Below are positions 10,492 to 11,172 of a DNA stretch of 64,000 nucleotides, one piece after another (within the stretch, counting starts at the first letter, position 1; every line of letters begins with the position of its first letter). Source of the DNA: an uncultured Burkholderiales bacterium (lineage in GTDB: Bacteria > Pseudomonadota > Gammaproteobacteria > Burkholderiales > Burkholderiaceae_C); NCBI GenBank assembly GCA_903956845.1, contig CAJBOO010000239.1:1-64000 (forward strand), in the 5' to 3' direction. The notes beneath the pieces are model-generated. The model saw nothing but the letters and a program-made list of their open reading frames with translations. It was not told where the DNA came from and did not search any database. Made by a program: the position numbers and the translations under genes.

Positions 10492-10663
10492 TATGTGTGG
10501 TTTTTTTGTTGTGCCATGGCATGAAGTCAGGATAAATACTTGGTTTTATATCGGTTTTCTGCCTCATAATGGCTCGGACTGCGTGTATCTACAGGGGTAG
10601 AGTGCGCAGTGTGTGTGGTGATCGGCTAGTTTCGCTTCTTGGCTTTCGTGGACAGGTGCAATC

Positions 10664-10702
10664 GGGACTCCATCGCTTTTTTATTTGTTTTTATGGAGTC
10701 CC
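10664..10702 (+). promoter_or_regulatory. RBS-sequestering hairpin in the leader of the RRM protein gene
   Basis: GGGACTCCAT (10664-10673) and ATGGAGTCCC (10693-10702) form a perfect 10-bp stem with a 19-nt loop made almost only of U, A and a few G. The Shine-Dalgarno GGAG (10695-10698) lies inside the 3' arm, paired with CTCC, and the ATG at 10706 follows three bases after the stem. The structure should keep translation low until it is opened. The 214-base gap from amtB to this gene also holds a weak promoter candidate (CATAAT at 10565-10570) and otherwise nothing recognised. Confidence 0.75.
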
Positions 10703-10705
10703 TGA

Positions 10706-11134
10706 ATGGGCAACAAACTGTATGTCGGCAACCTGCCGTATTCCGTGCGCGATGGCGACTTGGAACAATCTTTTGGTCAATTTGGCACGGTCACCAGCGC
10801 CAAAGTCATGATGGAACGCGACACCGGTCGCTCCAAAGGCTTTGGTTTTGTGGAAATGGCCAGCGACGCAGAAGCTCAAGCTGCCATCAGTGGCATGAAT
10901 GGCCAACCTTTGGGTGGCCGCAGCCTGGTCGTGAATGAAGCACGCCCCATGGAACCTCGTCCTCCCCGCAGTGGCGGCGGTGGCTACGGTGGTGGCGGTG
11001 GCGGTGGCGGCTACGGTGGTGGCGGCGGCGGCGGTTACGGCGGTGGTGGTGGTGGCGGTCGTCGTGAAGGCGGCGGTGGCTACGGTGGTGGCGGTGGTCG
11101 ACGCGAAGGCGGCGGCGGTCGCAACGAATACTGA
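10706..11134 (+). CDS. Glycine-rich RRM RNA-binding protein
   Basis: The 142-residue protein has one RNA-recognition motif at the N terminus: RNP2 LYVGNL at residues 5-10 and RNP1 KGFGFVEM at 44-51. A low-complexity tail from about residue 88 is made of YGGGGGG and RREGGG repeats. Similar single-RRM, Gly-rich proteins in cyanobacteria and some proteobacteria are often cold-induced and thought to act as RNA chaperones; function here is by family only. The repetitive tail is encoded by GGT/GGC runs prone to slippage. Translation is probably controlled by the hairpin covering its ribosome-binding site. It is convergent with lptC. Confidence 0.9.
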   Translation: MGNKLYVGNLPYSVRDGDLEQSFGQFGTVTSAKVMMERDTGRSKGFGFVEMASDAEAQAAISGMNGQPLGGRSLVVNEARPMEPRPPRSGGGGYGGGGGGGGYGGGGGGGYGGGGGGGRREGGGGYGGGGGRREGGGGRNEY

Positions 11135-11147
11135 TCTGCTCCAACAC

Positions 11148-11172
11148 AAAGGCCTCGCAAGAGGCCTTTTTT
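11148..11172 (+). terminator. Rho-independent terminator after the RRM gene
   Basis: AAAGGCCTC, a GCAA loop and GAGGCCTTT form a 9-bp stem followed by a T-run ending at 11172. It ends the RRM transcript. It abuts the lptC stop on the other strand and may also weakly stop that operon. Confidence 0.9.

Follow-up and report, generated by a model that had tools for sequence, protein, structure and literature searches.

RRM genes in Comamonadaceae and their relatives are preceded by what is, as judged from comparison of sequences, a conserved cis-regulatory leader RNA. The leader would be around 129 nt long and begin with a hairpin (P1), followed by a conserved block without pairing, by a helix that is optional (P2) and by a terminal hairpin (P3) that includes the Shine-Dalgarno (SD) sequence as its 3' arm. 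It may well serve in negative autogenous translational control by the RRM protein, a reading that we hold with slightly more than even confidence. RRM proteins are common in eukaryotes and little understood in bacteria, and the leader probably contains a sequence that is the natural ligand of a bacterial member of the group. The example described here comes from an uncultured Burkholderiales bacterium and lies within a window of 64,000 nucleotides, the whole stretch of DNA that was analysed.

The leader and its gene in the window

Transcription is predicted to start near 10577, as placed by a conserved -10-like sequence, CATAAT. The initial annotation had proposed folding from 10492, and the transcript probably does not start near that position. 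The features of the locus are as follows.

10540-10545, + strand: possible -35 element TTGGTT, 19 nt before the -10, from reading beside relatives' leaders
10565-10570, + strand: -10-like CATAAT, conserved in relatives' leaders
10578-10610, + strand: P1, 5' hairpin of the leader, from the window fold; the corresponding helix covaries in relatives
10615-10632, + strand: conserved unpaired block GUGGUGAUCGGCUAGUUU (relatives' consensus GCGGUGAUCGGUCAGUUU), from the alignment of relatives
10633-10658, + strand: P2 region; the helix covaries in relatives and is weak in the window
10664-10673, + strand: P3 5' arm, the anti-Shine-Dalgarno strand, from window reading, shuffle test and relatives' leaders
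10674-10692, + strand: P3 U-rich loop; CAUCGC (10671-10676) and the U run before the SD are conserved in relatives
10693-10702, + strand: P3 3' arm with the Shine-Dalgarno GGAG (10695-10698), from window reading, shuffle test and relatives
10706-11134, + strand: RRM gene for a protein of 142 aa with one RRM (PF00076) and a tail rich in glycine; open reading frame, Pfam E 5e-23
11148-11172, + strand: terminator-like inverted repeat and T run, 3' of the RRM gene, from window reading alone

A consensus promoter scan of the window gave no match at this leader, and an open reading frame considered as a leader peptide was rejected, since its start at 10569 precedes the predicted transcript start. 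The pairing assigned to P2 in the window, between CGCUU (10633-10637) and AGGUG (10654-10658), is a putative one made by position and is absent from the predicted minimum-energy fold; the leader of a relative from the window's own genus (L011) is without P2. The RRM gene is present as a single copy in the genome from which the window derives. The terminator-like repeat that follows it suggests a single-gene transcript, and the repeat is not among the features listed by the consensus scan.

P3 had been described in the initial annotation as a perfect 10-bp stem that contains the GGAG, with the ATG just after it, and direct reading of the window reproduces this exactly. The 5' arm, GGGACTCCAT, pairs along its full length with the 3' arm, ATGGAGTCCC, around a loop of 19 nt in which U is predominant, and the ATG occupies 10706-10708. 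The pattern of both arms and their spacer has one occurrence in the window and none in 100 dinucleotide shuffles. Among stems that end 2-13 nt before an ATG, the one at the RRM gene has 10 gapless Watson-Crick pairs, and none of the window's 50 other open reading frames with 150 aa or more has over 6; stems of 10 such pairs turned up at 13 of 6000 random positions. Taken as a whole, the leader has an ordinary fold energy (z -1.02 for 10492-10760 and z -0.59 for 10577-10725), so the case for the element rests on conservation. A reading of P3 as a terminator was rejected because the U run sits in the loop and not 3' of the stem.

Conservation among relatives' leaders

The family (Comamonadaceae and relatives) is a large one of water and soil bacteria, and 140 of the 150 genomes searched from it have the RRM gene. 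The leaders compared were those of 216 RRM genes of relatives, together with the window; 129 belong to the loci L001-L130, 79 or 80 to named organisms, which include Variovorax, Acidovorax, Polaromonas, Limnohabitans and Hydrogenophaga, and 8 to extra sites. Most relatives share a common order, which runs from CATAAT through a variable hairpin, the GCGGUGAUCGGUCAGUUU block, a helix and P3 to the start codon. The consensus of P3 in most of them is GGGACUCC-AUCGC-U-rich-GGAGUCCC, followed by the start codon.

A gapless Watson-Crick SD stem of at least 7 pairs is found in 84 of 173 leaders, as opposed to 7 of 865 shuffled ones, in a set from which second-type leaders (see below) and others were left out according to our own classification. 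When G-U pairs are counted, 165 of the 173 have an SD stem of at least 6 pairs, the shuffled comparison covering the Watson-Crick count only. The U-rich nature of the loop, also claimed for the window at the outset, holds for the relatives, with a mean U content of 51% in 93 loops (those with a stem of at least 6 Watson-Crick pairs) compared to 30% further upstream. Two or three copies of the RRM gene are present in many genomes, frequently spaced by about 600 bp, and the hairpin is also found at many of the additional copies.

Some loci depart from this arrangement. In the genome G113 (loci L115 and L224) the RRM start codon is placed further downstream, and the hairpin, kept some 33 nt ahead of it, does not cover the apparent SD. 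At L037 and L154, one of which is titled Comamonas sp., GGAGCTAGGAG precedes the RRM start codon and there is no P3-like stem. Another RRM group (L202, L203, L205, L207, L209, L210 and L243) encodes proteins that mostly start MSN or MSS; by eye, its leaders have a terminator-like G+C hairpin, mostly with a U run, that abuts the SD GAAAGG, and they are without an SD stem of the P3 kind.

Confinement to RRM genes

R1, a covariance model of the hairpin trained on 52 leaders (the window's among those of relatives), was searched against 150 whole genomes of the same family under stricter filters and at E up to 0.01, the E-values being rough. The initial annotation had counted lack of conservation of the stem in relatives against its own proposal; the search came out otherwise, with 122 matches in 85 of the 150 genomes. 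In 112 of the 122, the last matched position is the third base of a start codon that belongs to an RRM gene in the initial list. Eight of the other 10 correspond to RRM starts missing from that list, including one whose gene is truncated at 11 residues by a contig end and one whose frame is broken, which brings the total at RRM start codons to 120 of 122. The remainder is made up of one match around 33 nt before an RRM start and the weakest match, which is at no RRM gene. Non-training sequences make up at least 68 of the 120, and up to 52 of the 122 may be training sequences. Within the window, R1 matches this site only.

The second leader type was represented by R2, a sequence-only model of 24 leaders, searched at E up to 0.001. 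R2 gave 49 matches in 49 of the 150 genomes, all 49 at RRM starts (26 and 23 in two checks), with at least 13 of the training leaders coming from the genomes searched. No genome has matches to both models. R1 or R2 is present in 134 of the 140 RRM-bearing genomes, and 16 of the 150 genomes have neither, 10 of these being without an RRM match. A leader found at nearly every RRM gene across the family constitutes a defined and testable regulatory RNA.

At the level of the order, 10 of 250 genomes match R1, of which 7 belong to the same family. The 3 matches outside the family are weak (E 2e-4 to 7e-3), and their loci yielded no RRM start. A survey of other families found RRM genes in 23 of 80 genomes, the window's own genome counted in, and inspection of these leaders by eye revealed no P3-like hairpin among 26 loci, in 4 of which the start was unlocated. 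The confinement of the element to RRM genes points to something that is tied to the gene, most simply its product; with a general regulator, other genes should carry the element as well.

Evidence for pairing

In the first leader type, 95.2% of pair cells in 52 leaders hold standard pairs, against 39-60% when the register is slid by 1-3 columns. The 8 stem pairs of the same 52 leaders contain no two-sided change, and their covariation score is below that of all 500 shuffles; the addition of a ninth, outer pair brings six two-sided cells, no more than in shuffles. As the stem is near-fixed without two-sided change, sequence constraint alone could explain the first type.

Comparison with divergent leaders is what supports the pairing. 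In the second type, GAAGCUCC is found opposite GGAGCUUC, in the same register as GGGACUCC opposite GGAGUCCC in the first, and pairs 5, 6 and 7 pass from A-U to G-C, from G-C to A-U and from G-C to A-U, respectively, with pairing kept. The comparison takes in 147 first-type and 7 second-type leaders, such that 154 of 239 leaders are alignable in register and only 7 of 47 second-type leaders fit it. In the rest of the second type the stem is weaker or shifted, as in GAAGCUC opposite GGGCUUC, and a gapless Watson-Crick stem of at least 6 pairs is present in 2 of 24 second-type leaders, or 18 of 24 when G-U is counted. The exchange of pairs 5-7 may represent one historical event. Compensatory changes in the stem, which had been put forward earlier as a check, are therefore lacking within the first type and appear as three exchanged pairs between the types.

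Both stem arms are altered and still pair in L109, L113, L130 and L217, and in L060 and L164 the stem is altered and shifted and still pairs. Mismatches break pair 3 in 24 of 147 leaders and pair 8 in 48 of 147. Outside P3, of 265 candidate 3-pair stacks the six that covary most all belong to the helices P1 and P2, the next having less than half of the top score, in a scan that ignored relatedness and left out 10 of 167 leaders as misaligned or of another type.

Predicted accessibility of the Shine-Dalgarno sequence

The accessibility of the GGAG was predicted by folding from the predicted transcript start to 40 nt of coding sequence at 5, 20 and 37 °C, with pseudoknots and proteins outside the model, for 142 of 167 leaders; the 25 without a -10-like site or GGAG were left out. 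The median unpaired probability is 0.002-0.004 and is the same at all three temperatures, with values below 0.1 in 69-74% of the 142 leaders and above 0.5 in 1-3%. Since the GGAG is predicted to be paired in most leaders, the default state would be closed, with no opening in the cold. The suggestion of a cold switch, made when the hairpin was first noted, finds no backing in this constancy between 5 and 37 °C. The term "locked", applied to the SD at the same time, agrees with the predicted closure and is too strong for the family as a whole, where mismatches are common and some stems are weak.

As in RNA thermometers that sequester the SD, the sequence is predicted to be paired at low temperature; opening in the growth range, the other trait of such thermometers, is not seen in the predictions, which have the SD closed up to 37 °C. 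The alternative cold fold with an open SD that characterizes cspA-type leaders is likewise missing at 5 °C from the pseudoknot-free model. The Rfam model of the cspA-type cold switch has no match in the window or the leader.

Predicted stem strength varies by genus among 33 named leaders within L131-L197, in a comparison that is confounded with phylogeny and gene copy. Stems are weaker on average in Polaromonas, where they range from -6.5 to -12.4 kcal/mol, as well as in Limnohabitans (-7.7 to -14.2 kcal/mol), and strong stems are found in Tepidicella (-17.4 kcal/mol), which we take to be a thermophile, and Verminephrobacter (-17.9 kcal/mol), with Giesbergeria at -9.9 kcal/mol.

Proposed control and its alternatives

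We infer three things about the leader, namely repression by P3, the RRM protein as ligand, and the sign of the feedback loop. P3 would keep translation low, and the RRM protein or a tandem paralogue would bind the U-rich loop of P3, perhaps together with the conserved upstream block. The bound protein would hold P3 shut, and through this feedback an abundant RNA-binding protein would have its level set. Two features, the restriction to RRM genes and the U-rich loop, favour autogenous translational control, and the leader has the trait of such systems in that a conserved structure lies at the SD of a gene for an RNA-binding protein. Autoregulation had been offered as a guess in the initial annotation; it has become the best-supported reading, through conservation, restriction to RRM genes, two-sided changes and the U-rich loop, with the step that involves the protein still conjectural.

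ELAV/Hu proteins, PUF60 and Sex-lethal are binders of U-rich RNA. They are included, the first as HuC and HuD, among the nearest solved sequences to the RRM of the window, and a poly(A)-binding protein, with a ribosomal protein of the chloroplast, provides the top solved-structure matches (both statements refer to the best 60 of 164 matches). A single-RRM protein of Acinetobacter is described, in PMC9313427, as preferring AU-rich RNA.

In a more elaborate form of RRM-protein sensing, an upstream GCGGUG would pair as a pseudoknot with the CAUCGC at the start of the P3 loop and so clamp the SD hairpin, and the RRM protein would read the closing U-rich strand. All 6 pairs can form in 104 of 164 leaders, and 72 of 2000 shuffles equal this on average. 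This pairing is compatible with the leaders and weakly supported, and we consider the switch as a whole to be doubtful. In the second type, as seen by eye, a pairing could form between CACA of the loop and a UGUG that lies upstream.

P3 could also be a fixed translational brake, in which the U-rich loop acts as a standby or S1-binding site and the ribosome, along with S1 or cold-shock proteins, opens the stem without any feedback from the RRM protein. Such a brake would be in keeping with the U-rich sequence that immediately precedes the SD in first-type leaders, the closed state predicted at every temperature folded (5, 20 and 37 °C) and the differences in stem strength among genera, but it explains neither the confinement to RRM genes nor the retention of the upstream unpaired block and the two helices, and we think it unlikely. 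That some other ligand reads the leader appears decidedly unlikely, since restriction to a single gene family better fits self-recognition and no Rfam family matches; the candidates would be a small RNA, an RNase whose cleavage of the U-rich loop frees the SD, or a small molecule. An unpaired conserved block beside conserved helices does resemble a riboswitch, and single-stranded U-rich loops are targets of RNase E-like enzymes.

Highly improbable, in our estimation, is a temperature-responsive leader, whether through a stem tuned to the temperature of the habitat or through a cspA-like cold fold that opens the SD. The weak stems of Polaromonas and Limnohabitans and the place of the presumed thermophile Tepidicella among the strongest would suit the former, but the genus trend is confounded as described, and Verminephrobacter and Giesbergeria break any simple rule. 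The constant predicted accessibility of the SD speaks against this reading, and the covariation scan of relatives' leaders found no conserved helix that competes for the SD or anti-SD strand. The temperature-responsive reading does have a parallel in cyanobacterial RRM genes, whose 5' UTRs carry cold-response boxes according to PMC9333190.

Relation to known systems

Autogenous control by the RRM protein would, if true, provide an RRM-protein translational feedback loop outside cyanobacteria and Bacteroides. The S15 and S4 pseudoknots are autogenous translational leaders of ribosomal proteins, and the present leader resembles them as the leader of an RNA-binding protein gene that would control its own SD. 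They differ from it in ligand, structure and lineage, and the binding of the RRM protein here is putative.

The nearest named kind is the Chlorobi-RRM RNA motif (RF01697), which sits in RRM leaders, as the element in the window does (RRM_1 E 5e-23). In PMC2864571, this motif is a candidate structured cis-regulatory RNA (table entry "y y n"), likewise named for RRM genes, and is listed for Chlorobi, whereas the window leader falls outside its Rfam model, with no match to the covariance model in the window or the leader. The cyanobacterial rbp genes share 5' UTR control of single-RRM genes with glycine-rich tails, and they are set apart by the conserved boxes and cold response in their description (PMC9333190), no cold response being predicted for the window leader. 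In Bacteroides thetaiotaomicron, a CLIP site for the RRM protein RbpB lies on the rbpB mRNA and autoregulation of rbpB is suggested (PMC11697453); this organism belongs to another phylum, and an SD hairpin is not among the features described in the portion of that article available.

No report of this RRM leader was found in the open-access literature, with some of the queries being narrow. The whole window, searched against Rfam at the gathering score, gave no match to any family at the element, and a search of 10492-10780 at E up to 5 returned only mir-1954, which is below threshold and chance-like. Ten loci with related leaders gave no Rfam match other than a manganese riboswitch elsewhere in L005. 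This riboswitch (RF00080, L005:2722-2895) adjoins the RRM locus of a relative.
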